A stretch of DNA of 32,798 nucleotides from Gemmatimonadota bacterium (GTDB lineage Bacteria; Gemmatimonadota; Gemmatimonadetes; Gemmatimonadales; Gemmatimonadaceae), in contig CANHTA010000015.1 of the NCBI GenBank assembly GCA_947463135.1, positions 1 through 32,798 of the forward strand, written 5' to 3'. A model generated the notes under the pieces. It made no database searches. It saw only the letters and a list, made by a program, of their open reading frames with translations, and was not told the origin of the DNA. Of the stretch, positions 2,607 through 27,922 are shown piece after piece (position 1 is the stretch's first letter; each line of letters begins with the position of its first letter). The position numbers and the translations under genes were made by a program.

Positions 2607-3407
2607 CCGCAGCGGGCTGGCGTCGCGATATGGCGCCGATCCACTAGCTGGTATTTCCGCGCCCGTCCACCCACGACACGATCCGCCTGCACGCCGTTGG
2701 GTCCCGCGATGGTGCGATGTCGAGGCACCGCTGTTACCCGCCACGCTTCTGAGGACGCCGGCGACGCCATCGCGCTGACGCTGAAGACGCCGGAGACGCC
2801 ATCGCGCTGACGCTCAGTGGCGCATCCGCTGACGATGCGCTGACGCACCTGCCGTAGGTTGTGCGAGCGACGGGAACCGGGAGTCGCCACGATGATCACC
2901 GTTTTGGGCTGGTGGCTGCATGGTGAACGCAACAGGCTCGTGTTGCTGTTGGTGGGCGTCCGTCTTCTCGCCGAGAAGTCGACCCACCCCGATTGGCATT
3001 CCTATCTCGATTGCGTATCACCGAACTGCTCGCAACATCCACGCAGCAAGAAGCAAATACATCCCCATCATCGCCATGATCAGTCAATCCCTTATCTCGA
3101 TTGACACTTGGGTCCCACTTGGTTGCGATACAGCTCAGGACGTAAGGCGACATAGGATGCATATCACCTGCCTATCTCGCGCTTGCAGGTGCAGGCTTGC
3201 GCGAGGGCCTCCAGGTCAAAATCTGTGTTCACTGCGAGCTGCATCATGCCGCAGCGGGAACAGCGACTTCCAGACGCAGCTTGATTGCGGTTCGAATGCG
3301 CCGTTTCGTAACGTGTCGCGACAACTCGCCATCCAGCACAAAACAGTGTTGGATCAGGATTAATGGAGAGCTAACGGGCCTCCTTCCACTTAACACAAGA
3401 GATCACG
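2607..3407. other. Gene-poor, A/T-richer interval
   Basis: About 800 bases without a convincing gene. Open frames on both strands (for example 2920-3363 plus and 2896-3162 minus) have no recognisable domain, no good ribosome binding site and unnatural composition. The stretch holds a two-copy 32-bp tandem repeat (2751-2814) and a 7-bp inverted repeat (arms 3176-3182 and 3199-3205). The phrase TATCTCGATTG occurs twice, near 3003 and near 3092. Composition becomes visibly richer in A and T than in the flanking receptor gene, which may mark the edge of an acquired segment. Confidence 0.5.
2751..2814. repeat. Two-copy 32-bp tandem repeat
   Basis: Bases 2751-2782 and 2783-2814 are direct copies differing at two positions. 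Each contains GACGCCATCGCGCTGACGCT. They lie about 145 bp after the receptor stop codon. No function is apparent; a decayed minisatellite is possible. Confidence 0.8.
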
Positions 3408-3698
3408 ATGAAGGCTTTTCCGATTATGTGCGCTGTAATTCTGTCGCTCAGCGGTGGCGCGCTGCTCACGCCAGTATACGCCAACGAGGACCCGATCCTG
3501 CTTGAAGACGGATCAACGCCTACCTGTAGCAGCGGCACCGCGAACGTGTGTTGGCAGAGAACTACCGATACATGCACGGCTTATCAATGGGTCGGCTACG
3601 ACGGTTCCGTCACTGTGCCGCGTGGGGGCAGTGTCGGCGTCAAGCTTGAGTGCAAGACCAAGGAGGTCGAAACGCAAACGAAGTACTACAGCAACTAA
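3408..3698 (+). CDS. Small secreted four-cysteine protein, copy 1
   Basis: A 96-residue protein with a clear Sec signal peptide: MKAF, a hydrophobic stretch, then cleavage probably after PVYA at about residue 25. The mature part is about 70 residues and acidic at its N-terminus (NEDPILLEDGS). It has four cysteines in the order CSSG, VCW, TCTAY, ECKTK. A purine-rich AAGAGA lies 5 bases before the ATG. The protein matches the next gene (3948-4235) through the signal peptide, the DPI-x-x-EDGS segment, all four cysteines and the tyrosine-rich C-terminus, so the two are tandem paralogs. The family is not one I recognise with certainty. In size and neighbourhood it resembles the short secreted NVEALA-type proteins found beside 6-bladed propeller genes in Bacteroidetes, but the NVEALA motif itself is absent. 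Confidence 0.75.
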   Translation: MKAFPIMCAVILSLSGGALLTPVYANEDPILLEDGSTPTCSSGTANVCWQRTTDTCTAYQWVGYDGSVTVPRGGSVGVKLECKTKEVETQTKYYSN

Positions 3699-3947
3699 AA
3701 GGCTGGTGGTGTCTCTGGCCGATCTAAGTGGCCGACAGTATCAGCAAAGTGCTCTTGTGACGCAGAAAACCACCGAACGATTCAGTTATGACATCATGCT
3801 GCATCCAAGGGCTGCTTTGCCACATTGCTCGGTCTTCGCTTGACACAACGTGCACAATTGCGCGGTCAGGATCAGCGCTAATGCTGCGATCTCCAGATGA
3901 ACTGTCAGCAGGCAATTATCCCCCTCACTCTCACTCGGAAGGGTCCC

Positions 3948-4235
3948 TTGAAATTACTCTTTATCGCATGTGCCGTAGCCCTCTCGATCAGCGGCGCGGC
4001 TTCGCTAACGCCAGCCTACGCCATCGACGACCCGATATTCCCCGAAGATGGTTCCATGCCGTCGTGTTCGTCCGGCACCCCGAGACCGTGCAGTCATTCA
4101 GAAAAGAAGAACTGCATTGAGTATCACGTGGTCGACATTAATGGGAAGATCTCTCCGACTGGCGCCGGCGTTGGCGTGCAGACGATGTGCAAAACTATGG
4201 AAACAGTGCATACTTTCCAATACTATAGCCACTAA
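3948..4235 (+). CDS. Small secreted four-cysteine protein, copy 2 (TTG start)
   Basis: Paralog of 3408-3698. An in-frame ATG at 3897 would add 17 residues before the signal peptide. I prefer the TTG at 3948 because GGAAGG lies 5 bases upstream and the resulting 95-residue protein is colinear with the 96-residue paralog. The signal peptide (LKLLFIACAVALSISG, cleavage probably after PAYA) is followed by a mature part beginning IDDPIFPEDGS, with four conserved cysteines (CSSG, PCS, NCI, MCKT) and ending in FQYYSH. It presumably acts outside the inner membrane, possibly with two disulfide bonds. The two genes are 249 bases apart, so they may be transcribed separately. Function is unknown. Confidence 0.7.
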   Translation: MKLLFIACAVALSISGAASLTPAYAIDDPIFPEDGSMPSCSSGTPRPCSHSEKKNCIEYHVVDINGKISPTGAGVGVQTMCKTMETVHTFQYYSH

Positions 4236-4248
4236 ACACGTAGCGTGT
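4236..4248 (+). terminator. Weak hairpin just after the peptide-2 stop
   Basis: A 5-bp stem (ACACG/CGTGT) with a TAG loop starts at the base after the stop codon and is followed by CTTTCC. It could be a weak terminator. The stem is short, so this is tentative. Confidence 0.25.
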
Positions 4249-4311
4249 CTTTCCGCTAAAGCACATCGCTACGAAAACCAGCGGACGGGCGAAACCGTAG
4301 AATGAGGACAC

Positions 4312-4364
4312 CGAGTGCGACGGTCCACCCATTTCGTGGCTTACCGGTGACACCGTCGCACTCG
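4312..4364. other. Perfect 13-bp inverted repeat, compound stem-loop
   Basis: CGAGTGCGACGGT at 4312-4324 is the exact reverse complement of 4352-4364. The 27-base loop holds a further 4-bp stem (CCAC 4325-4328 with GTGG 4336-4339). There is no T-run after either arm, so it is not a canonical intrinsic terminator. It lies between the peptide pair and the promoter proposed for the next gene. It could be a terminator, an RNA structure or a protein-binding dyad. Confidence 0.55.
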
Positions 4365-4369
4365 TACCA

Positions 4370-4397
4370 TCGACCTAAACGGGCCATCATGTATAAC
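4370..4397 (+). promoter_or_regulatory. Candidate sigma-70-type promoter
   Basis: A TATAAC hexamer at 4392-4397 (5 of 6 to consensus) is preceded after 16 bases by TCGACC at 4370-4375 (4 of 6). It would start transcription near 4404, leaving a leader of about 48 bases before the ATG at 4452. Confidence 0.4.
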
Positions 4398-4451
4398 TGA
4401 GCGCCGGCGTATCCACGTGTCGCCGCTCTCTACTTCAGTTACGCATTCATC

Positions 4452-4937
4452 ATGTCAAACTCAAAAACGTCCTTGCTCAGTCTCGTCGCTCTTTGGATGG
4501 GCGGGCTTTTCGTTGGGGGCATGCTTGCCACACGTGTGCTGTCTGCTGCACCGCTGGCGGACGAAAACAATGGCAAAGCGTCGCTCCTGCTTGTCGTATC
4601 ACCGGAGAGTTGTCTTTCCCTATCGACAAGTTTTGAGGGCATGAGTGACGCTCTCGACGTAGAAGCCTTTCAGCCTTTACGTGGTATTCGGGTGATCGGT
4701 TCCGAGGCTACTGCGTCGCGTCTGAGTGCACTCGTAGCCAGTAGAGGGCTCAATGTTTCGGTCAAGAGTATGAAGCCACTTCAACGCCTACGGCTTCGCC
4801 TCACGCCGAAAAAGCACCAATCGTTCATTCTTCTTGTGGATAGCTTGGGAAGTCCAGTATTTCGGCAAGAGTTTCCGAAGACCAAAGATCAACAGGCTGC
4901 GTTGGTCAAATACCTCCTCGAGATGTCCCATGAATAG
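4452..4937 (+). CDS. Membrane-anchored thioredoxin-fold-like protein, single cysteine
   Basis: A 161-residue protein with one N-terminal hydrophobic segment (about residues 8-32), acting as uncleaved anchor or signal peptide. The rest is read as a degenerate thioredoxin/redoxin fold. There is a beta strand LLLVVSP, then SCLSL at about residues 53-57 where redoxins carry CxxC, followed by a helix, a second alpha/beta unit, and FILLVDSLGSPVFRQEF resembling the strand-turn-strand near the redoxin C-terminus. Only one cysteine remains and the usual cis-proline is not evident, so disulfide exchange by a CxxC pair is unlikely. It overlaps the next gene by 8 bases, suggesting translational coupling with the propeller lipoprotein. 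The fold assignment is inference; a plain membrane-anchored protein of unknown function is the alternative. Confidence 0.7.
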   Translation: MSNSKTSLLSLVALWMGGLFVGGMLATRVLSAAPLADENNGKASLLLVVSPESCLSLSTSFEGMSDALDVEAFQPLRGIRVIGSEATASRLSALVASRGLNVSVKSMKPLQRLRLRLTPKKHQSFILLVDSLGSPVFRQEFPKTKDQQAALVKYLLEMSHE

Positions 4938-5964
4938 CCATTCCAATCGAGACACGTGGCGCATGCATGGCGGCGGCTCGCGTTTGCCAATCCGCCGCAT
5001 CATTGGGGGAATGCTGTGTGTCTTGGCTGCATGCAGCCCTCCGAAGGCAGATTCAGCCACCGATGAAGCAGGCGCACGCGAAAGGCTCCCCCTTCGGTTC
5101 GTTCGCACCAATGTGATACGCGTCGATCGGCGTGCCCCCTTCAGCATGTTCCAACCCAGGTTCATCGCCAAGGTGGGATCGCGTGTCCTTGTCGCCGAAG
5201 GTGATCTGTCGCGCGTCTTCTCGGTGAACCCTGACGGCTCTCTTGTTGAAGAACAGGAACGACGTGTTCCGCGGGCACTGCAAAAGGACGCTGGTGCGAA
5301 CAATAGCGCGCAGAACCTTTCCGCTAAGACGAGGCGGTCCATTGAGCAGATAACCGATCAAACCCGAGGCGCGTGTCTGCTTTCGGATTCGATCATGCTG
5401 ACGTACGGGAACGCGCCCTCGGGGACGGTGATGACCCGCACCGAATACCGCGATGATGGCGCGGCCACTGCGACGCATATAGAAGTGCCGTTTTTCCGTC
5501 ACCACCCTGCAAGTTGGATGCTCCGGGAGGCGGTGTGGGCCGGGGACGGCCGCCAGACATGTGTTGCCGCGAGCCTCTACAGCTACGGAATCAGTGTATA
5601 TGATGGAAAGGAGATCACTCCGCGTGCCATCGATTACATCGAGCAGGTTGGTGAGGCAACGGTGTTCACCGCGGTGGATACCGTTGGTCCATCCATCACG
5701 AAAACTGAGAGCGTGCGTGCACCAGGGTATGGCGCTCGCGATATTGCAATCCGCAACGATTCGATCTATGTGCTTTTTGTTGGTAAAGCGCTTCGCGCAA
5801 GCCGAAGTATTGACGTATACTCGGCGTCTCAATTGCGATATCTGGGAACGTACGAGCATTACGCAAGAGTCGAGGCTATTGCGACATCACTCGACGAGAT
5901 CGTGCTGCTGACAAAGGACAGAAAGGGATACTTGATCGAGACAGGACAGTTTCTTTCACGATAG
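4930..5964 (+). CDS. 6-bladed beta-propeller-like lipoprotein
   Basis: From the ATG at 4930, which overlaps the previous stop codon, the protein has 344 residues. It begins with a basic region (RLPIRR), a hydrophobic stretch and a lipobox LAAC at about residues 32-35, so it is probably lipid-anchored. An alternative ATG at 4963 gives a more typical lipoprotein signal length; neither start has a strong ribosome binding site. The mature part has repeated strand patterns such as VLVAEGDLSRVFSVNPDGS and TSLDEIVLLTKDRKG. These resemble the 6-bladed (TolB/NHL-like) propeller proteins common in Bacteroidetes and Gemmatimonadota. These folds bind ligands or proteins, and no catalytic residues can be named. 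It sits between the thioredoxin-like protein and a second propeller gene in the same direction. Confidence 0.75.
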   Translation: MNSHSNRDTWRMHGGGSRLPIRRIIGGMLCVLAACSPPKADSATDEAGARERLPLRFVRTNVIRVDRRAPFSMFQPRFIAKVGSRVLVAEGDLSRVFSVNPDGSLVEEQERRVPRALQKDAGANNSAQNLSAKTRRSIEQITDQTRGACLLSDSIMLTYGNAPSGTVMTRTEYRDDGAATATHIEVPFFRHHPASWMLREAVWAGDGRQTCVAASLYSYGISVYDGKEITPRAIDYIEQVGEATVFTAVDTVGPSITKTESVRAPGYGARDIAIRNDSIYVLFVGKALRASRSIDVYSASQLRYLGTYEHYARVEAIATSLDEIVLLTKDRKGYLIETGQFLSR

Positions 5965-6002
5965 ACTTTCAATCATTCACGTCACTTTTTGGACCATACG
6001 CT

Positions 6003-7121
6003 ATGAGACAAATCCTGCTCTTCCTTTTGTTTAGTGTCACCTCACCGCTTGCTGGGCGAGTAGATGCGCAACGCGTGGTCGGACAGACTGTCTGGTCTCT
6101 TCGGGAACACCCGGACTATATTCTGTCGGCGACAGGCCGTCCGGTTATCGATGAAGCGGGGCGGTTGTATTTGGCTGAGCCGCAGGACTTCGGCATCAAC
6201 GTGTTCACGGCCGATGGGCTCTTCGAAGGGCGTCTTGGCAGGAAGGGCGGCGGACCGGCAGAGTTTGAGCAGCTCTGCTGCATCTTTGGGGACCCCAAGG
6301 GGCGGATCTGGGCGCGTGATGCAGCGCTTCGCCGTTACCAGGTTTTCGCGCCTCTTCAGCGTGAGCGGAAAATGGGGTATCTCTTCACCGCTCCACTCAG
6401 TCATTCGAGTCCTAACTTCACGCCTGGGCTTGGTTTTGGCGGTGGCAAGCTATACGAAATTGCGTTCCCATCCAAATCTCCCTCCGTTGGGCAGAGCATG
6501 GTGCGGCTTGTGGCGGATTCAAACGGTCGGGTGATCAGCTCGTTTCCGTTGCCCTCGGTGAAGGTGGACTCGGTCCCAGCGGCGGTGCTTCGTTACAAGT
6601 TGCCCGATGGTGACGGTATGAGGTTCTTCCCCGCCCCATTTGGCGATCGACCACTACTCGCGCAGGCATCCAATGGCGCGTTGGTCGTGGCGTCAAGCGG
6701 ACGTTACGAGATCCATTGGTACGACCACCGAGGGACGCTCCTACGCGTCATTCGCCGTAAGGCAGAGCGGGTCCCGCTGTCCGCGGGGGAACGGCAACGT
6801 GCGAAGGACTACGTTTCCGATGTGGTGCAGAAGTTGAAGGCCTCCGGCGGCAGCGTCAGTTGGCCGGAAGTGACCACGAAACCTCCGCTCCGCGACCTTG
6901 AGTTCGATCAGGAAGGTCGCCTGTGGGTTCAGCGCACGACGCTGGCCGATAAGCCGATGGAGTCGGATGTGTTTCGACCGGATGGAACCTTTGCCTTCAC
7001 CGCGGTGTGGCCAACGCTGCGCGGATTGAGATTCTCTGGGGCAGCCAGAGGTTCCGCCGCGTGGGCGTACTACGCTGGCGATGATGATGTCGCGCAACTG
7101 GCGAAGGTGGTATTCAAGTAA
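6003..7121 (+). CDS. Secreted 6-bladed beta-propeller protein
   Basis: A 372-residue protein with a signal peptide (MRQILLFLLFSVTSPLAG, cleavage near VDA at about residue 22). The family signature GRKGGGPAEFE lies near residues 80-90 and matches the (I/L)GR-x-G-x-GPGEF motif of 6-bladed beta-propeller proteins. Further blade-like strands follow (DPKGRIWARD, DSNGRVISSFPLP, DQEGRLWVQR). It is predicted to act in the periplasm or at the surface as a binding protein. It begins 38 bases after the lipoprotein propeller and is the last gene of the cassette. A weak upstream ribosome binding site and short spacing suggest cotranscription. The ligand is unknown. The alternative name NHL-repeat or TolB-like protein describes the same fold. 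Confidence 0.85.
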   Translation: MRQILLFLLFSVTSPLAGRVDAQRVVGQTVWSLREHPDYILSATGRPVIDEAGRLYLAEPQDFGINVFTADGLFEGRLGRKGGGPAEFEQLCCIFGDPKGRIWARDAALRRYQVFAPLQRERKMGYLFTAPLSHSSPNFTPGLGFGGGKLYEIAFPSKSPSVGQSMVRLVADSNGRVISSFPLPSVKVDSVPAAVLRYKLPDGDGMRFFPAPFGDRPLLAQASNGALVVASSGRYEIHWYDHRGTLLRVIRRKAERVPLSAGERQRAKDYVSDVVQKLKASGGSVSWPEVTTKPPLRDLEFDQEGRLWVQRTTLADKPMESDVFRPDGTFAFTAVWPTLRGLRFSGAARGSAAWAYYAGDDDVAQLAKVVFK

Positions 7122-10057: not shown

Positions 10058-10099
10058 GCACAAATGCGCGCGTGAATCACAGGCGCAGGGATAGAAAAC

Positions 10100-10317
10100 G
10101 GAAACAGACGGTTCCTGCCTGACACGGATACGAGCGGAGAAGAACGGATAACAACGGATCTGCTCCGTTGCGCGACCAACGCCGTGGCGTGCCGGCAGTT
10201 CAATAAAGAAAATAAATCGCGCAGCCCCGCAAGGATCATCGTCGCCGCCACGGAGCAGATCCGTTCGCAGCCGTTTCTATCTGTTCGTATCCGTTCAAGC
10301 AGGAACCGTCTGTTTCC
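10100..10317. repeat. Hairpin of repeat copy 1
   Basis: The left arm 10100-10168 begins GGAAACAGACGGTTCCTGC and ends GGATCTGCTCCGT. The right arm 10250-10317 is its imperfect reverse complement, identical over the outer 19 and inner 15 or so bases. The loop is 10169-10249 and contains a small GCCGTGGC hairpin and an A/T-rich AATAAAGAAAATAAAT stretch. Confidence 0.85.
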
Positions 10318-10394
10318 ATCTGTTTCCGTCTGTTTCCGTTGTTTCCCATCCGCACAACGCGCGCGTGTGAATCCACAGCGCAGGGATAGAAAAC

Positions 10395-10612
10395 GGAAAC
10401 ACACGGTTCCCGCCTGACACGGATACGAGCGGAGAGAAACAGATAACAACCGATCCGCCTCGTTGCGCGACCAGCGCGGTGGCGTGCCGGCAGTTCAATA
10501 AAGAGAATAAATCGCGCAGCCCCGCAAGGATCGTCGTCGCTGCCACGGAGCAGATCCGTTCTTCTCCGTTGCTATCCGTTGTTATCCGTTCAAGCAGGAA
10601 CCGTCTGTTTCC
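10395..10612. repeat. Hairpin of repeat copy 2
   Basis: Left arm 10395-10463, right arm 10545-10612. This is the most diverged copy: the left arm carries AACCGATCCGCCTCGT where copies 1 and 3 have ACGGATCTGCTCCGT, so the inner stem is weakened while the right arm is unchanged. Confidence 0.8.
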
Positions 10613-10679
10613 ATCTGTTTCCGTTGTTCCACATCCGCACAACGCGCGCGCGTGATTCCAATGCGCAGGGATAGAAAAC

Positions 10680-10897
10680 GGAAACACACGGTTCCCGCCT
10701 GACACGGATACGAGCGGAGAAGAACGGATAACACCGGATCTGCTCCGTTGCGCGACCAACGCCGTGGCGTGCCGGCAGTTCAATCAGGAAAATAAATCGC
10801 GCAGCCCCGCAAGGATCGTCGTCGCCGCCACGGAGCAGATCCGTTCTTCTCCGTTGCTATCCGTTGTTATCCGTTCAAGCAGGAACCGTCTGTTTCC
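10680..10897. repeat. Hairpin of repeat copy 3
   Basis: Left arm 10680-10748, right arm 10830-10897. Its loop is nearly identical to that of copy 1 and its right arm to that of copy 2, suggesting exchange between copies. It is followed by decamer-like TCTGTTTCCG repeats to about 10920, then the partial fourth copy. Confidence 0.82.
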
Positions 10898-10961
10898 ATC
10901 TGTTTCTGTCTGTTTCCGTTCCCCCTCGTGGCGCGACCAACGCCGTGGCGTGCCGGCAGTT

Positions 10962-16089: not shown

Positions 16090-18129
16090 ATGCAAACATC
16101 GAGTACTGCCAGCGCCCCTGTGCGGGCCTCTGTCGTCACGCCGATAGCCCCGTTGCGAGCCGCCGCCGTCGCGTTCCTGGCGGTGGTGTTGCTGTGCGTG
16201 GTCTACGACGCGCTCGCGCCGGAACCACGGGGTGGGGCGGCGTTCGGGCCGTGGTCGGCCGTCACGATGATCCTAGGCGCCGTCGTAGCCGCTGTCGCGG
16301 CGTTCGTCGCCAGCGCCCGCTACGCCGCGCTACAGGCGGCGTTGGCCGTGGCCGTGGCACAGCGAGCGGCGCTCGATGTGCAACATGAGGCGCTCGCGGA
16401 AAGCGAAGGCCGGTATCGGGCCCTGGTGGAGGCCTCGCCGGAAGCGATTGCGGTGCATCGGCAGGACACGTTGGTGTACGTGAACGCCGCCGGGGCCACG
16501 CTCATTGGCGCCTCAAGCCCGGAGGAACTCATTGGCCGACGGGCCTCGGACTTCGTGCACGCCGATGACCATGTGCTGTTGCAGCAGCGAGGAAACGCCG
16601 AGTCGTCGCGCATCCAATACCGCCTCGCGCGCATCGATGGGTCGGTGCGCGAAGTGGACGCCGCGTCGGCGCGCATTGTGTACGAACAGACCGCTGCCAC
16701 GCAGACGGTGTTTCGTGATATCACCGAGTACAAGGCGCTGGAAAGCAAGCTCCTGCATGAGGCCTATCACGACTCACTGACCACCTTGGCGAACCGCGCA
16801 CGGTTCCGTGATCGCGTTGAGCATTCGCTGGCACTGGTTGGTCGCGACCGGCAAACCGGGGTCGCGGTGCTGTTTCTCGACCTTGATGACTTCAAGGGTA
16901 TTAACGATACGCTGGGTCATGATGCGGGCGATCAGGTGCTCCGTACGGTGAGTGAGCGGCTGATCGCGGAAACGCGCGCCTGTGACACCGTCGCGCGCTT
17001 CGGTGGCGACGAATTTGCCGTACTGCTGGAACGCGTGGCGAGCCACAGCGAAGCACTGGCCATTGTGAATCGTATTAAGGTGGCGCTGCGTCGCCCCATG
17101 ATGCTCGAGGGGCGTCTGGTCTCGATCTCTGCCAGCGTGGGCGTCGCGTTCGCGGAACCTGGCGATGAAGTGGACACGCTGCTGCGCAATGCGGATGTGG
17201 CGATGTATGAAGCGAAGGAGGCCGGAAAGGCGCGGCATGCCGTCTTCGAGCCCGCCATGCATCAGGCCATTGTGCAACGGCTGCAGCTCGAGTCCGACTT
17301 ACGTGGCGCCATCGATGATCCCACGGCGGCCGGCTTGCGGCTGGTGTATCAGCCCATCGTGAAGTTGGACAGCGGCGACATCAGCAGCATGGAGGCGCTG
17401 CTACGCTGGCAGCATCCATCGCGTGGCGCTATTTCACCCTCCGTGTTCGTTCCGCTGGCCGAACAGACCGGTACCATTGTACCCCTTGGCTGGTGGATTC
17501 TCGAGCAGGCCTGCCGTCAGCTGGTGGATTGGCGCACCACGTGGTGCCTGGAACATCGGCCTCCCGGCACCCTGCCCACCATCGGGGTGAACATCTCCGG
17601 CCGCCAAATGGCCGAACCGAACTTCGTGGAGCGCGTGAAGGAAATTCTGGTGGGCACCGGTGCCCCGCCGGAGAGCCTGACCATTGAGATTACGGAATCC
17701 GTGATCATGCGGAACACCGAGCGCTCCCTCACCACATTGCACGCGCTCAAGTCGCTCGGTGTGCGGCTGGCCATCGACGATTTCGGCACGGGATACTCGA
17801 GCCTGAGCTATCTCCAGAAGTTCCCCGTCGATGTGCTCAAAATCGATCGCGCGTTTGTGGAAGGGGTCCAGCACGGCGCCTCCGACACCGCCCTCGCCCG
17901 CACCATCGTGGCCCTGGGGCAGACGCTCGGCTTGCAGACGGTCGCCGAGGGGGTCGAGCTGGAATCCCAACGCAAGGTGCTCCATTCGATGGGGTGCATG
18001 TTGGGCCAAGGCTATCTCTTCTCCCACCCACGCGAAGTGGAGGAGCTCACCTCCTGGCTCAACCTCGACCACGTTCGACGGTTCAGCCCCGTTGCCACCA
18101 TGCTGGCCGTCGCGGAGACCTCCGCCTAA
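16090..18129 (+). CDS. PAS-GGDEF-EAL cyclic-di-GMP signalling protein
   Basis: A 679-residue inner-membrane protein from the ATG at 16090; an upstream frame to 15991 is Arg-rich and unlikely. Two hydrophobic segments (about residues 17-40 and 56-80) are followed by a short helix and a PAS domain (EGRYRALVEASPEAIAV, FRDITEYKALE). Then come a GGDEF diguanylate cyclase domain with intact GGDEF at 305-309 and an RACD inhibitory I-site five residues before it. The EAL phosphodiesterase domain has EALLR at 435-439, EITES, DDFGTGYSSL, KIDRAF and AEGVE. Both catalytic signatures look intact, so it could make and degrade c-di-GMP, with the balance set by PAS input and product inhibition. Its stop codon overlaps that of the convergent PEP-CTERM gene by two bases. 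Nearby pilus genes are possible outputs, by inference only. Confidence 0.93.
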   Translation: MQTSSTASAPVRASVVTPIAPLRAAAVAFLAVVLLCVVYDALAPEPRGGAAFGPWSAVTMILGAVVAAVAAFVASARYAALQAALAVAVAQRAALDVQHEALAESEGRYRALVEASPEAIAVHRQDTLVYVNAAGATLIGASSPEELIGRRASDFVHADDHVLLQQRGNAESSRIQYRLARIDGSVREVDAASARIVYEQTAATQTVFRDITEYKALESKLLHEAYHDSLTTLANRARFRDRVEHSLALVGRDRQTGVAVLFLDLDDFKGINDTLGHDAGDQVLRTVSERLIAETRACDTVARFGGDEFAVLLERVASHSEALAIVNRIKVALRRPMMLEGRLVSISASVGVAFAEPGDEVDTLLRNADVAMYEAKEAGKARHAVFEPAMHQAIVQRLQLESDLRGAIDDPTAAGLRLVYQPIVKLDSGDISSMEALLRWQHPSRGAISPSVFVPLAEQTGTIVPLGWWILEQACRQLVDWRTTWCLEHRPPGTLPTIGVNISGRQMAEPNFVERVKEILVGTGAPPESLTIEITESVIMRNTERSLTTLHALKSLGVRLAIDDFGTGYSSLSYLQKFPVDVLKIDRAFVEGVQHGASDTALARTIVALGQTLGLQTVAEGVELESQRKVLHSMGCMLGQGYLFSHPREVEELTSWLNLDHVRRFSPVATMLAVAETSA

Positions 18130-18806
18130 CGGGCGTCCCCACGGCGACGTGCGACACCCAGCAGGCCAACGAACCCGGTAGCCAGGAGCGCCAGGGTGCC
18201 GGGCTCCGGGACCGCGCGGCGCACCACGCTGACGTCATCGAGGTGGTTTCCGTAGCTGGTGGGCCCGGGATTGTTCTTGCCCCGGAACTCCAGTTTGGTC
18301 TGGGTACCGGCTGCCACAAAGGTCGCGTTGAAATTGAACCAGGTTTTTGACGGGCTGCTGAGCGTGTTGCCGAACTGACCGGTGGTGAACAGGAACGTGT
18401 CGTTGATGAAGACCTCAATCAGACTGAAGCTGTTCCCGCCGCCCGGGCGATGCAGACCGAAAAAGGACAGGTCATAGGTTGCGCCGGTCACGGTACTCAG
18501 GTGCTGCCACAGGCTGGTGGGTGCGTTGACATTGAGTTCGATGTGCGCACTGCCGTCCTTCGACGAAATCCCCTCGTATGGTCCAACCCACCGCTCCACG
18601 TTATCCGTGGGGTTGGCGGTCCATCCAGTAAACGGGGCGTTTGGGTAGTAGGGATAGTTGCCGGGTTGCGATGGCAACGTTGGGCTTTCGAAGCTGCAGT
18701 TTGCCACGATGTTGCCGGTGGTGGTGGCACACTGGGCGCTTGAGACCGACGGCAGCAGCGCGAGAGACGCCAGCGCAGCCAGCGAAGCGAAAGACGTGAG
18801 TCGCAT
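18126..18806 (-). CDS. PEP-CTERM sorting-domain exported protein
   Basis: A 226-residue protein from the ATG complementary to 18804-18806. It has an N-terminal signal peptide ending SVSSAQC. The body begins GNIVANCSFESPTLP and has GSAHIELN, then LWQHLSTVTGATYDLSFF, resembling choice-of-anchor C or DUF642-type carbohydrate-binding-like folds. The C-terminus is a clear PEP-CTERM signal: VPEPG, a hydrophobic segment, then ARRRGDAR. Such proteins are processed by an exosortase and exported to the surface or matrix; no exosortase gene is in this window. No ribosome binding site is evident, and a longer frame from 18866 is less likely. It is convergent with the c-di-GMP protein, with stop codons interleaved. 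Confidence 0.88.
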   Translation of the reverse strand: MRLTSFASLAALASLALLPSVSSAQCATTTGNIVANCSFESPTLPSQPGNYPYYPNAPFTGWTANPTDNVERWVGPYEGISSKDGSAHIELNVNAPTSLWQHLSTVTGATYDLSFFGLHRPGGGNSFSLIEVFINDTFLFTTGQFGNTLSSPSKTWFNFNATFVAAGTQTKLEFRGKNNPGPTSYGNHLDDVSVVRRAVPEPGTLALLATGFVGLLGVARRRGDAR

Positions 18807-23797: not shown

Positions 23798-25744
23798 TTA
23801 CCGACCGGCAAACCAACTCGCGGGCGAGAAATTCAGCGGGTTGACTTCGTAGTACTGGCTGCGTGCCCAGTGCCCGGTGGTGGGAAAGTAGGGCGGCGGG
23901 TACAGCAGCATGCATCGGTTGAAGGAACGGTCTCCCATAAACCCATGCAAGTTGTTGCCGCTGAAGGTGCCCGACTGTCCCGTGCGATTCTGGACGATGC
24001 CACCGATCACGCGCAGCGTCCCCCGATTGACGTATCGATTCGGGGTAAGCCCACCTGGTGGGAGCGCCGAGTTCTCAGCCGCCACCGACTGCAATCCCAT
24101 CAGGGCCGCATGAACCGCTAAATCCGGACGGTTGTCTGCGGGGTCAAAGTCCTTGCGGGGCCACATCCAGTCCCCGCCGTTGGCTGTGGTGCGTCGCGAC
24201 TGCGGTGACGTCAGGGTGTTGTCGGCGTACATCACGTAGCCACCACCAATGAGCCCGACGGCATCATCGGTAGCACGGCAGGCGCCCGTGGTCACACTCG
24301 GACTCGTCGCCTGAATCAGATTATGGACGATCACCATGGTGTTTCGCGAAGCCAACGTGAGCCGCCCGCGCACCGTCCCACTCACCGCCACTTTCCCCTC
24401 AACGAAGATCACGCCGCGGAAGTTGGGGTTGAGCGCCGGGCTCAAGGGCCAGAGGTAGGCACCGTCGGCGCGCGCCGCCACCGTGGCCGGAACGCTCCCC
24501 GATGTCCGGGGCATCCAATATCCCGCGCCATCGTTGGCACGAAACACGCCTGTTGGCGACAGCCGATCGTCGCCTCCCAGAAAGCAGCGCGCATCGTCAT
24601 CGTCGAACGCGGCGGCTTTGTCCTGCATGCGATCCGCGTACGTGCCCGCGGCACGGTGAGCAATCTGCCCGAAGGTCGTTGGGATAGCCGTGCGACCGGC
24701 CACCACCGCGGTCACTCCGCAGTTGCGGGAGTACAACACGCTATCCAGCGGCACCGCTGATCCAGACGGGACCGGTGCGCCCGACGCCGCCGATGGGGGT
24801 TCGGGTGGGCGGGCCATGGTGAAACCCGCGCCGAAGGGGAGCGCCGGCAACAGCTGGTAGACTTTGAAGTAGCCGTCGTTCGGCCCGGTGGTGTTGCCAT
24901 CGTTGTCACTGTCGATGGCCACAAACTCAATGCGCATGGTCGCCAGTGCGCTGTCTCCGGTGACGACATCCGGCGTAAAGGCATAGCCGGCACGCGACGC
25001 AATGCTTTTGAGAATGTTCAGGTCGGCGGTCGCCGGCATGGGAATGTGCGTGACCCCTTCCTTGGGCGCTCCCTTTTTGAAGTCCGCCGAGCCTTTGTTG
25101 AGCACAACGCGGGTGGTCGAGACTTCATCGCCGAATGTCGCCTGCGGACTCGGCGTCGCACCATTCCAGATGTAGATCGTATCGTTGGCGTGCACCGGGC
25201 CGTGTACCTGCGCCCCGAGGGCCCACCACAACACCGATCCATTGGTGGAACGCGCGATATTCGTGAACCACGCATAGCGCGCAAACGACTGCTGATACAC
25301 CTGCGACCGGCGAATCGCCACGTTCCCGTATCCGTCAACGGCCTTGGCCACGATTTCCGCCTGCACACCGTATTCGCCGGCATTCCCCAGCGAATCCGCA
25401 TTGCCGATCCGGGACACCCAGATGCTCCGCTTGATGTTCGTGCCCGAAATCGTCTGGTTGTCCGCCACGGTCAGATATCCCTCCAGCGGCACCGAGTCGA
25501 TGTGCGCATTGAGGCGCGACCGCTCATCTTCCAGCGCGGAAATTGCCGCGTCGTCAACGGCCGCCGATCGATCAGAGCCTGCCTGCACCAACACGGTGGA
25601 CATGGTGAGCATCGAGGTCGCCAAGGCCACCACCACCGCCACCATGGCAATCATCAGCACGGCCACTAACGCAAAGCCACGACGCGTCCGTGGCCGGTAT
25701 GCGCCATGTCGTATGCGCCCTGAGACCATCAGCCGGTTACTCAT
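23798..25744 (-). CDS. PilX-like / DUF4900-like pilus-associated protein
   Basis: A 648-residue protein starting at the ATG complementary to 25742-25744, which overlaps the upstream stop as ATGA. A prepilin-like N-terminus (RTRRGFALVAVLMIAMVAVVVALA) has the glycine cleavage site but valine instead of glutamate at +5, as in PilX/GspK-type proteins. The large remainder includes a block FRGVIFVEGKVAVSGTVRGRLTLASR, then VGLIGGGYVMYADNTL, which resembles the DUF4900 region of pilus-tip-associated proteins. An Asp-rich DSDNDGNTTGPNDG loop could bind calcium. It is the last gene of the minor-pilin operon and may form part of the tip complex with the PilW-, PilV- and FimT-like products. Function beyond pilus assembly or adhesion is inference. 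Confidence 0.78.
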   Translation of the reverse strand: MSNRLMVSGRIRHGAYRPRTRRGFALVAVLMIAMVAVVVALATSMLTMSTVLVQAGSDRSAAVDDAAISALEDERSRLNAHIDSVPLEGYLTVADNQTISGTNIKRSIWVSRIGNADSLGNAGEYGVQAEIVAKAVDGYGNVAIRRSQVYQQSFARYAWFTNIARSTNGSVLWWALGAQVHGPVHANDTIYIWNGATPSPQATFGDEVSTTRVVLNKGSADFKKGAPKEGVTHIPMPATADLNILKSIASRAGYAFTPDVVTGDSALATMRIEFVAIDSDNDGNTTGPNDGYFKVYQLLPALPFGAGFTMARPPEPPSAASGAPVPSGSAVPLDSVLYSRNCGVTAVVAGRTAIPTTFGQIAHRAAGTYADRMQDKAAAFDDDDARCFLGGDDRLSPTGVFRANDGAGYWMPRTSGSVPATVAARADGAYLWPLSPALNPNFRGVIFVEGKVAVSGTVRGRLTLASRNTMVIVHNLIQATSPSVTTGACRATDDAVGLIGGGYVMYADNTLTSPQSRRTTANGGDWMWPRKDFDPADNRPDLAVHAALMGLQSVAAENSALPPGGLTPNRYVNRGTLRVIGGIVQNRTGQSGTFSGNNLHGFMGDRSFNRCMLLYPPPYFPTTGHWARSQYYEVNPLNFSPASWFAGR

Positions 25745-26934
25745 GGCACCACCACGGAGCCAGAGGCCACCAGGCTTGAGATGTTCGGCGTGCAATCCTG
25801 CACGGCAATGCCATACTGATACATCGTGCCAACCCCCACCTGAACGCCGGAATCCTTGTAGCGGTACGAGGTGGTGCCGCCCACCACGCTGACCGAGGCG
25901 AAAGGGTTACCCCAAACCGGAGCACCGACAATGCGACGCCAGATGACATACCGCACCGCATCCTCTTCACCGTGCCCGTCGTCAACCGCTGGCGACCAAT
26001 TCAGGATCACCGCATTACTGTCGGACACCCACGCGGCGCTCGGGGTGTTCGGGACAATCGGTGGCCGCCCGCATGCCCGTGCCTGTCGTTCAACGGCGGT
26101 ATTTGGCATTGGCACCGTATACCGCACAACATTCGCCTGTCCGTTCACCGGTCGCGAGGGTTCATAGGTCACTTCAACACCGCGAACCTGATCGATACGC
26201 ATGGAGACGGCCGTTCCGGTATCCGGCGCAATGCCACGGGCCACCACCGCTTTGGTGAGAGGCAGCCAGTCGCGTGGTACGGTATCCAGGTCGGTGTTAT
26301 CGGTGTTAAAGCGCGAAGGGTCGTGCCAGTAGCGGAAAAATGGAATAGAGCCGGACTTGCGCAGCCCCGTGGCGATAATCTCCGCCCGACGTCCATTCAC
26401 TTGCCGCACGAGCATCACGTCGGCGGAATTACTCGAGGTCGTGTCTTTGGTAAACCGGAACATGATCGTTTCGGCATCACCGGTCGTACCGGCCACGGCC
26501 GAGTAATCGGCGATGGGATAAGTGAATGCCGGCGCCGAGCCGGGGATGGTGATGGCGTTGCCAAGCGTCAGCGCACCCACCTCGGCATTTGTTGCCTTCG
26601 GGTCCACATACACCGCACCGGAGAACATCGCCGAGTCCAGGCGGTTGGTAGTGAGGTCGCTGTTGAAGGCGAACACACTGTCACTGGCGTATACCAGCGT
26701 CGGTTGAATGTCGGTGACATTGGTACCGGCGGTGCGGATTTCCTGCCGCATAATGTCGCGGCCAAACCGACCGTTCTGAATCTGCGCCGTGCGGGTGGCC
26801 ATGGAGCGGAACCCGCGGCTTTGCGATACGAGAAAGCTGAATGCACCGGCCATGACGACGCTGAAGATCACCAGCGCGAGCATCACTTCGGCCAGGGTAA
26901 AGCCACGCCTGGTGTGAGGAGCAGTGGACGACAT
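25741..26934 (-). CDS. PilW-like minor pilin with C-terminal fibronectin-III-like domain
   Basis: A 397-residue prepilin. MSSTAPHTRRG precedes the class III cleavage site, followed by FTLAEVMLALVIFSVVMAG with glutamate at +5, the standard pilin signature. The segment MATRTAQIQNGRFGRDIMRQ is typical of PilW/PilJ-type proteins. The C-terminal roughly 110 residues look like a fibronectin type III fold: NTPSAAWVSDSNAVILNWSP, then VRYVIWRR and TMYQYGIAVQDC. Minor pilins normally lack such a domain, so this one may present a binding module on the pilus. Its start lies 2 bases after the stop of the PilV-like gene and its stop overlaps the next start. Confidence 0.85.
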   Translation of the reverse strand: MSSTAPHTRRGFTLAEVMLALVIFSVVMAGAFSFLVSQSRGFRSMATRTAQIQNGRFGRDIMRQEIRTAGTNVTDIQPTLVYASDSVFAFNSDLTTNRLDSAMFSGAVYVDPKATNAEVGALTLGNAITIPGSAPAFTYPIADYSAVAGTTGDAETIMFRFTKDTTSSNSADVMLVRQVNGRRAEIIATGLRKSGSIPFFRYWHDPSRFNTDNTDLDTVPRDWLPLTKAVVARGIAPDTGTAVSMRIDQVRGVEVTYEPSRPVNGQANVVRYTVPMPNTAVERQARACGRPPIVPNTPSAAWVSDSNAVILNWSPAVDDGHGEEDAVRYVIWRRIVGAPVWGNPFASVSVVGGTTSYRYKDSGVQVGVGTMYQYGIAVQDCTPNISSLVASGSVVVP

Positions 26935-26936
26935 CG

Positions 26937-27335
26937 TTATGGCGCCGCAATGATGATGGAACGCTTGATAGGAACAGGCAGATTCGCCGTGACGGCAGCC
27001 GATACGGTGACCGTCACGCGCGTGATGCTCTGCCCACCGGTGGTATCTGCGACAACCGTGGTGACACTGCTCAACCCGTCTTCCGCCGGGTTGAACCGCT
27101 CCGTGCTCAATTGCGACAGCGTGGAATACGTGGGCCAGGCGCGCGCACGACCGATTTGCATGTCTGCCACCGACTGCGCGCGGTTTCGCACATCCGAGTT
27201 ACGGATTGAGGCGGAAAACTTGGTGGTCCCCAAGGCCATGGTGAGCACAACGCCGCCCAGAATCACAAGCGCGATCATCACTTCGATGAGCGAGAAGCCA
27301 CGGCGTGGCGAGTTCGGCACGGGGGCCATGGTCAT
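26937..27335 (-). CDS. PilV-like minor prepilin
   Basis: A 132-residue prepilin. The ATG complementary to 27333-27335 overlaps the upstream stop (ATGA) and gives a leader of MTMAPVPNSPRRG, cleaved before FSLIEVMIALVILGGVVL with glutamate at +5. Nearby in-frame starts at 27350 and 27329 are possible. The body is short, with a beta-rich C-terminus (VTVTVSAAVTANLPVPIKRS) that resembles PilV-type minor pilins. It probably helps prime pilus or pseudopilus assembly with its neighbours in the inner membrane and periplasm. Confidence 0.83.
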   Translation of the reverse strand: MTMAPVPNSPRRGFSLIEVMIALVILGGVVLTMALGTTKFSASIRNSDVRNRAQSVADMQIGRARAWPTYSTLSQLSTERFNPAEDGLSSVTTVVADTTGGQSITRVTVTVSAAVTANLPVPIKRSIIIAAP

Positions 27336-27922
27336 TGGGCGCGTTTCCATGCGCTGCCGGTCCAGACATACCGGTCGGGGCGCGCGGTGGCACGAGCCAC
27401 GACCACCGCGCGCGCATCGGCCGCGCTCGCTCCGGCCATGCTTGCTAGGGTGGAGAGATACAGCGTCACGCCACGGTCCGCACTGCCGTTGCGTTGCAGC
27501 ACCAGCATGGGGCGATCGCCAAGCATCAGCATGGGTGGCACACTCTCCGTGGCCGTACCAAGCGCGGCTACGCTGGACGGACGGCCCAGGACCACGCGCT
27601 CCGGGAGCAGGAAGGGGCGCGTTTTTTCGCCGGCGTCGGCCACGTTGTTGTTGTTGGCGTCCCACACGGTCGTAATGGTGTGAGCGTTGTCATCCATCAC
27701 CAGCAGCACGTTGTGCTGACGGCTCACCGCCTCACGTTGTGCGACCATGAGCGACATCCCAAGGGTGCGTATCGCGGTATCCACCTCCGCGTTATCAACC
27801 AGAATCTTGGGCAAAGCGAGCGCGGCGAGGATACCGATCATCGCAATGACCAGCAGCAGCTCGATGAGTGAAAACCCATGGGTGCGCCTCCTGACGGGCG
27901 CGTGTGCTCGAATCACGGACAT
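27332..27922 (-). CDS. GspH/FimT-family pseudopilin
   Basis: A 196-residue prepilin, first gene of the operon. The N-terminal leader MSVIRAHAPVRRRTHG is followed by FSLIELLLVIAMIGILAALALP with glutamate at +5, the GspH/FimT hallmark. The next region (EVDTAIRTLGMSLMVAQREAVSRQHNV) matches the GspH helix that arranges residues before the globular head. The DANNNNVADAGEKTR segment is also common in these proteins. I prefer the ATG at 27922 for a leader length like its neighbours. A GTG at 27949 with GGAG four bases upstream is an alternative that adds 9 residues. It probably primes fibre assembly at the inner membrane. Confidence 0.87.
   Translation of the reverse strand: MSVIRAHAPVRRRTHGFSLIELLLVIAMIGILAALALPKILVDNAEVDTAIRTLGMSLMVAQREAVSRQHNVLLVMDDNAHTITTVWDANNNNVADAGEKTRPFLLPERVVLGRPSSVAALGTATESVPPMLMLGDRPMLVLQRNGSADRGVTLYLSTLASMAGASAADARAVVVARATARPDRYVWTGSAWKRAQ

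Follow-up and report, generated by a model that had tools for sequence, protein, structure and literature searches.

A gene cassette for exported and membrane-anchored proteins recurs in Gemmatimonadota, and one copy occupies positions 3408-7121 of the window, the whole 32,798-nucleotide stretch analysed here (contig C15 of a 3.55 Mb draft genome of Gemmatimonadaceae). Five consecutive plus-strand genes, with reading frames placed as the initial annotation had them, encode two small secreted four-cysteine proteins (S1 and S2), a single-cysteine thioredoxin-like protein (R), a propeller lipoprotein (L) and a secreted propeller-like protein (P), in that order. Among the members scanned, S and R have no convincing match in Pfam or NCBIfam; with L, they nevertheless make up a unit that recurs in a large phylum. 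We tentatively favour, with confidence somewhat short of even, the reading that the window carries an accessory copy of this cassette in which S is a disulfide-stapled hairpin, R its dedicated partner, and L and P its binding partners.

Recurrence in Gemmatimonadota

Profiles were searched against 395 Gemmatimonadota genomes, and neighbourhoods of the matches were fetched. A three-sequence S profile gave strong matches only in G000 and G006, with six more at E 4.6e-4 to 0.01. The idea that the cassette is an orphan was rejected because a wider S family surfaced through the neighbourhoods of L. Genome G006, which belongs to the same genus, encodes S-R-L-P in the same order (L032, 5345-8805), with identities to the window of 43% for S1, 27% for R, 26% for L and 37% for P. 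A further S-R set with propellers (L154) lies about 17 kb away on the same G006 contig.

The L profile matched 56 places in 44 genomes at E up to 1e-3, and 40 stretches were picked from these, excluding the cassettes of the window and G006. They include an R relative in 25 cases and a four-cysteine S in 19, mostly in the order S-R-L; the two counts are not independent, because loci reached via L contributed to the training of all three profiles (S, R and L). A profile built from 19 S sequences (A5) matched 38 genomes with the E limit set at 0.01 and, counted from the table, 29 with the limit at 1e-4. Fifteen contigs with S-profile matches at E up to 1e-4 lie outside the training set. R is encoded within 4 kb of S in 11 of these, L in 10, and one or the other in 12. 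Among the 15, G218, G333 and G202 were also matched by the L profile, the R of G218 is part of the R profile, G006 shares its contig with a training cassette, and G131 and G191 are near-copies. Contigs G273:C73 and G159:C157, both with S, R and L, were set aside as near-copies of G095. Weaker S matches (E 6e-4 to 9e-3, n = 10) had neither R nor L beside them in the four that were fetched.

As a control, 63 stretches fetched for weak S-like matches or for uppS loci (205.7 kb) held no S at E up to 1e-4, and R occurred together with L in two, L007 and L008. Extended as L229, the first of these carries all of S, R and L, although its S had escaped the profile; the numbers given for S are therefore minima. 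The R profile matched 69 genomes at E up to 1e-3, a number that includes ordinary CxxC thioredoxins (L230, L242, L243, L247). In 20 further loci, 19 of them reached via R and L229 chosen because of the control result, R is adjoined by L in 16 and by S in eight; these S were mainly read by eye, and a second S profile was trained on seven of the eight.

S-R-L cassettes are thus present in several Gemmatimonadota families, and gene order and gene overlaps are conserved among them. The initial annotation had expected the four-cysteine family to travel with propellers and the single-cysteine redoxin in a consistent order. This applies to many loci, including S-R-L-P in G006, but some S genes stand apart from R and L (see below). 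A GTDB scan with a single strict peptide pattern, too narrow to establish absence elsewhere, returned eight loci, all in Gemmatimonadota, Gemmatimonadetes or Gemmatimonadales.

Other genes adjoin some of the cassettes. ABC-2 transporters identified with Pfam are part of, or adjoin, S or L operons in L152 (1690-5609, with DUF3526) and L072 (4459-8153), and an ABC ATPase-like gene, recognised by sequence, follows L in L245 (1968-5876). Class V aminotransferase-like genes adjoin S-R-L in L074, L079 and L105 (Pfam Aminotran_5 in L079). We recognised no enzyme in the window cassette that would modify S in the manner of ribosomally synthesised and post-translationally modified peptides; the aminotransferase genes occur near some cassettes only. 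We found no paper on the S-R-L cassette, NVEALA, DUF6520 or Gemmatimonad six-bladed beta-propellers in the literature searched, outside of which most subscription journals lie.

The window copy and a shared site

The features of the window copy are listed in Table 1. The R and L genes overlap by 8 nt, as first described, and L and P are separated by 38 nt. The initial annotation also saw the DNA as richer in A/T than its flanks, and the GC content is indeed 0.565 over 3408-7121 versus 0.635 in the window minus 2900-7121. GC at third codon positions is 0.54-0.68 in the five cassette genes versus 0.68-0.84 in 14 other window genes.

Table 1. Features of the cassette in the window
Feature	Position	Strand	Description
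S1	3408..3698	+	96 aa; secreted four-cysteine protein; signal peptide to about residue 25; Cys40, 48, 56, 82; Tyr93
S2	3948..4235	+	95 aa; paralogue of S1; TTG start, GGAAGGG upstream
12-bp perfect inverted repeat	arms 4313-4324 and 4352-4363		between S2 and R; read from sequence
R	4452..4937	+	membrane-anchored thioredoxin-fold protein; single cysteine Cys54 near start of active-site helix
L	4930..5964	+	propeller lipoprotein; lipobox LAAC; NHL/DUF5128 superfamily via family profile
P	6003..7121	+	secreted propeller-like protein; adjacent Cys92-Cys93

The window's family has a shared site that carries R and L, usually with S before them. It is flanked by some or all of four genes that we take to encode an amino-acid permease, a DHH-type phosphoesterase, an Mrp-type ATPase and a MATE-type transporter. 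Twelve loci lie at this site (L228, L229, L231-L235, L239, L240, L244, L094 and L102), and a four-cysteine S is encoded in 10 of them (in L234 and L102 by profile); L231 ends at R. The window's own genome has a second S-R-L set at the shared site on contig C2 (L228, GC 0.647), and the window copy is therefore an additional one. Sampling of 158 genomes of the family found S of the core type plus the window type in 15, and 13 of these 15 belong to the window's genus.

Queries with S1, R, L and P (S2 was not queried) found no match at 12 same-genus uppS loci with flanks of up to 1.5 kb (67-85% identity, 11 genomes). The window copy looks accessory because these loci show no cassette. Together with the low GC, the empty loci fit acquisition or loss and do not prove the transfer at which the initial annotation hinted. 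Cassettes in general are not low in GC: the difference between cassette and flank has a mean of -0.012 across 19 loci, and in G006 it is -0.059. Transposase-like genes lie upstream of S in G006 (L032, 125-5105); as a sign of transfer by a mobile element they are suggestive only.

The four-cysteine proteins

S1 and S2 are 48% identical, which bears out their description as paralogues. Each has four cysteines past the signal peptide and one inside it. The signal peptides, judged by eye without a predictor, have a Sec-type look and end in YA. Tandem S paralogues also occur in L081, L083 and L151. Across 36 aligned S sequences the four cysteines are invariant and follow the spacing C1-x6-8-C2-x5-8-C3-x4-25-C4-x5-10-Tyr (Phe once), with the C3-C4 loop as the most variable segment. 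S proteins from L neighbourhoods are only about 15-27% identical to S1 and resemble it chiefly in the four cysteines, in how these are spaced and in the Tyr.

The AlphaFold2 (AF2) model of S1 has a mean predicted local distance difference test (pLDDT) score of 73.5 and predicts a long beta hairpin with strands at 47-63 and 78-94. Given the variability of the C3-C4 loop and the long hairpin predicted for S1, the most likely disulfide pairing would be C1-C2 and C3-C4, the latter at the hairpin neck. The model has no fold match in the PDB (best E 1.4), and the S profile gave no PDB match at E up to 10.

Pfam and NCBIfam held no convincing match for the S members scanned. The initial annotation stated that the small proteins lack the NVEALA motif, and the NVEALA model, which we presume to be part of Pfam, matched none of 30 distinct S (19 scanned at E up to 1; 10, nine of them among the 19, at E up to 5; and 10 further S at E up to 5). 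Assignment to DUF6520 (PF20130) was rejected, as one S of 19, from G006, matched over residues 10-65 at E 0.0088, with 16.8 bits versus a curated cut-off of 25.4. The matching stretch spans the signal peptide to the first cysteines. A DUF6520 search of the window's own genome gave no match, yet its control also matched nowhere. One S member matched Toxin_7 at E 0.095. S was also rejected as the small subunit of a quinone-cofactor amine dehydrogenase, as no Trp is invariant in the 36 S; four of them have no Trp at all after the first cysteine.

The single-cysteine thioredoxin-like protein

R had been described as a redoxin-like membrane protein with one cysteine, and its AF2 model agrees (pLDDT 77.7). 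The model predicts a membrane anchor (helix 7-31) and a thioredoxin fold with the topology beta-alpha-beta-alpha-beta-beta-beta-alpha, in which Cys54 is the fourth residue of the active-site helix. In a Foldseek search the best PDB matches of the model are of the ResA/CcmG types (E 5e-5), and 1-Cys peroxiredoxins and TlpA rank lower. Sequence searches gave no match better than E 0.44 in the PDB, none better than E 0.0077 in Pfam for 17 members, and none in NCBIfam for four members.

Distinct R motifs number 54, of which 46 have a single cysteine, seven are CxxC and one has no cysteine. QxxDC accounts for 33 of the 46, and the window R has SPESC. In an alignment with the relatives in L106 and L098, which keep CxxC, the lone cysteine lines up with the second Cys, the half of the pair that R most likely retains. 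Classification as an ordinary thioredoxin/TlpA oxidoreductase was rejected, as the window R has one cysteine in place of CxxC. The 1-Cys peroxiredoxin motif is PxxxTxxC, and that assignment was rejected as well, as R does not contain it.

R proteins that keep CxxC in L106, L245 and L246 lie in stretches whose small proteins have six to eight cysteines, not four. A simple rule that ties CxxC to the type of partner is contradicted by L237, in which a single-cysteine R accompanies an eight-cysteine protein, and by L098, in which R has CxxC and no such small protein was called nearby.

The propeller proteins

Alone, the window L has no Pfam match. Among 12 members of its family, DUF5128 was matched by six and NHL by four (E up to 0.01, with DUF5128 at 3e-5), and PQQ_2 by two. 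The L profile matched NHL propellers in the PDB down to E 1e-39; these include Thin, TRIM71 and the sensor domain of PknD (E 1e-39 to 1e-8). L is called six-bladed on the basis of its family profiles (DUF5128/NHL). Several loci encode L as a fusion with a membrane domain or have that domain as a separate gene.

The similarity of P to propellers is weak (DUF5128 at E 0.11; L profile at E 2e-7). The initial annotation had named two six-bladed propellers, a description that suits L through its family and P by this weak similarity only. The Cys92-Cys93 pair of P is conserved in the G006 homologue. Among the loci searched, a close P homologue accompanies the cassettes of the window and G006 only.

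Other features of the window

The inverted repeat between S2 and R is not followed by a T run and is absent from the terminator scan list. It is a possible transcript processing or attenuation site and may separate the expression of S from that of R-L-P. A promoter scan of the window found two candidates, which is the level in shuffled sequence (mean 2.0), and a terminator scan found seven versus a mean of 4.0 (standard deviation 1.7). There are no tRNA or Rfam matches in the window, and transfer by a known mobile element was considered and rejected.

Two 32-nt direct repeats lie head to tail at 2749-2812, upstream of the cassette. At 10066-10921, between epimerase-like and FeS oxidoreductase-like genes, a 285-bp unit is repeated in tandem (2.9 copies, 89% matches). 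The gene at 18126-18806 encodes a secreted protein with the tail VPEPGTLALLATGFVGLLGVARRR, which we take to be PEP-CTERM-like. Genes that by sequence resemble those for type IV pilins or pseudopilins form a cluster on the minus strand (23798-27922).

Proposed function and alternatives

We suggest that S is exported by Sec and loses its signal peptide. Mature S would then be a small beta-hairpin protein of about 35-100 residues with two disulfides, one of which, C3-C4, would close a hairpin of variable length at its neck. The inner membrane would anchor R so that its thioredoxin fold points into the periplasm, where R could act as a dedicated folding or holding partner of S, via binding or a mixed disulfide. 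Because just one cysteine of the CxxC pair is kept, R more likely binds or holds S than acts as a general oxidoreductase. General oxidation could be supplied by the VKOR pathway of the host. Its genome has one VKOR match, so it can probably form disulfides. The lipoprotein L, and in this copy also P, may bind S and display, retain or sense it, and the cassette could have a role in signalling or competition. In L230 (4776-5951) and L242 (3581-4955), a CxxC thioredoxin-like gene stands beside a VKOR-like gene, as judged by sequence, and this is perhaps the general disulfide-forming pair of these bacteria.

A bolder version, which we consider somewhat unlikely, is that the cassettes represent an undescribed secretion-and-folding system. 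Each member of the four-cysteine hairpin family would be paired with its own membrane-tethered QxxDC-type thioredoxin, which traps it by a single-cysteine mixed disulfide, and with a cognate propeller receptor. If true, R as a client-specific thiol holdase would be a new use of the thioredoxin fold, paired with a new family of secreted proteins. A thioredoxin fold that has lost half of its CxxC motif beside a cysteine-bearing client is also a testable case of redoxin repurposing.

Several points weigh against S as a stapled hairpin with R and the propellers as its partners. R is missing from 15 of the 40 L neighbourhoods and S from 21, and the S contigs L145, L147 and L152 have neither R nor L nearby, though L147 has the membrane domain found with L in other loci, and L152 an ABC-2 transporter. 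At the shared site, L235 encodes a two-cysteine small protein in place of a four-cysteine S, core-type S often has two additional cysteines, and the single-cysteine R of L237, with its eight-cysteine neighbour, indicates that partner types are not uniform. One S of 19 resembles the radical S-adenosylmethionine target family TIGR04117 (E 0.0025), and the four conserved cysteines could be metal ligands and not disulfide partners. The R model reaches template modelling (TM) scores of just about 0.45-0.5 to its best matches. The register of its cysteine is uncertain, as in the seven CxxC rows it falls on the second Cys in five and on the first in two. R may lack thiol chemistry altogether, since the second Cys of a CxxC pair is usually buried. 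The contacts between S and R and between S and L are ones that we infer.

S could alternatively be a narrow-spectrum bacteriocin-like antagonist or a kin signal that R matures, with the propellers or ABC-2 transporters providing immunity or reception. We regard this as unlikely. S is small, diverges fast, is often tandem and is accessory here; in L152 it lies downstream of an ABC-2/DUF3526 operon, and in L072 ABC transporter genes come after S-R-L. However, transporters lie beside few loci only, and there is no convincing match to a toxin or immunity family, with the Toxin_7 similarity limited to one member. A typical bacteriocin is not expected as a widely shared-site gene, whereas at least eight genomes of the same genus have the shared-site copy and 13 have core-type S. 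A chance grouping of unrelated exported genes, given that propellers are common in Gemmatimonadota, would account for the L neighbourhoods that lack R or S. It is contradicted by the 12 of 15 S contigs outside the training set that have R or L and by the control stretches, where R and L met in two of 63, one of them a true cassette. With order and overlaps conserved, chance is highly improbable.

Two further proposals give R and S a redox role. S could be a metal or cofactor redox subunit seated on the propeller and R its assembly factor, comparable to MauA, MauD and MauB or to the four-cysteine subunit of quinohemoprotein amine dehydrogenase. The parts are alike, as the mau cluster also combines a small cysteine protein, a membrane-anchored thioredoxin-like protein, a propeller and, sometimes, a small membrane protein. 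The decRiPPter authors (PMC7794033) describe candidate clusters in which MauE homologues, once with MauD, lie beside cysteine-rich precursors (at least eight Cys). The S proteins have no invariant Trp, CxxC is mostly gone from R, and four separate membrane domains that were scanned did not match the MauE model, which makes this proposal quite improbable. The cassette could instead be an operon that senses stress or the envelope, with R detecting peroxide or thiols through its one cysteine, S serving R as thiol substrate, and L being a propeller that signals. Peroxiredoxins of the 1-Cys type are also among the matches of the R model, and PknD, in which the NHL domain is a sensor module, is among the L-profile matches. 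But R has no peroxiredoxin motif, and the gene clusters common to at least three of 30 loci include no regulator or kinase; we find a sensing operon distinctly doubtful.

Comparison with known systems

R resembles ResA, TlpA and CcmG in its N-terminal transmembrane helix and thioredoxin fold. It differs in that CxxC is replaced by one cysteine, mostly in an xxDC context, in 46 of 54 motifs. The likeness to the methylamine dehydrogenase cluster (mauB, mauE, mauD, mauA) lies in its parts. In the small subunits of quinone-cofactor amine dehydrogenases, a conserved Trp serves the tryptophan tryptophylquinone (TTQ) or cysteine tryptophylquinone (CTQ) cofactor; the cassette differs in having no such Trp in S, in the loss of most CxxC motifs, in its NHL/DUF5128-type propeller and in the missing MauE match. 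The similarity to DUF6520 is confined to the single S from G006 and stays below the curated cut-off. The L family is related by profile to NHL propellers such as Thin, TRIM71 and the PknD sensor domain, and differs from them as a bacterial lipoprotein or membrane-fused protein that adjoins R and S.

In Bacteroidota, small secreted NVEALA proteins are encoded beside six-bladed propeller genes. The cassette shares this pairing, with L or P beside S in the window and in G006 and L within 4 kb in 10 of 15 further S contigs, and with L in a family that matches DUF5128. It differs in the lack of any NVEALA match, in an ordinary Sec-like leader and in the presence of the single-cysteine R. The initial annotation had drawn the same parallel, which stands as a resemblance only: the cassette may work like the NVEALA/propeller arrangement, and is not shown to be one. 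Given this likeness, solving one of the two systems may explain both.

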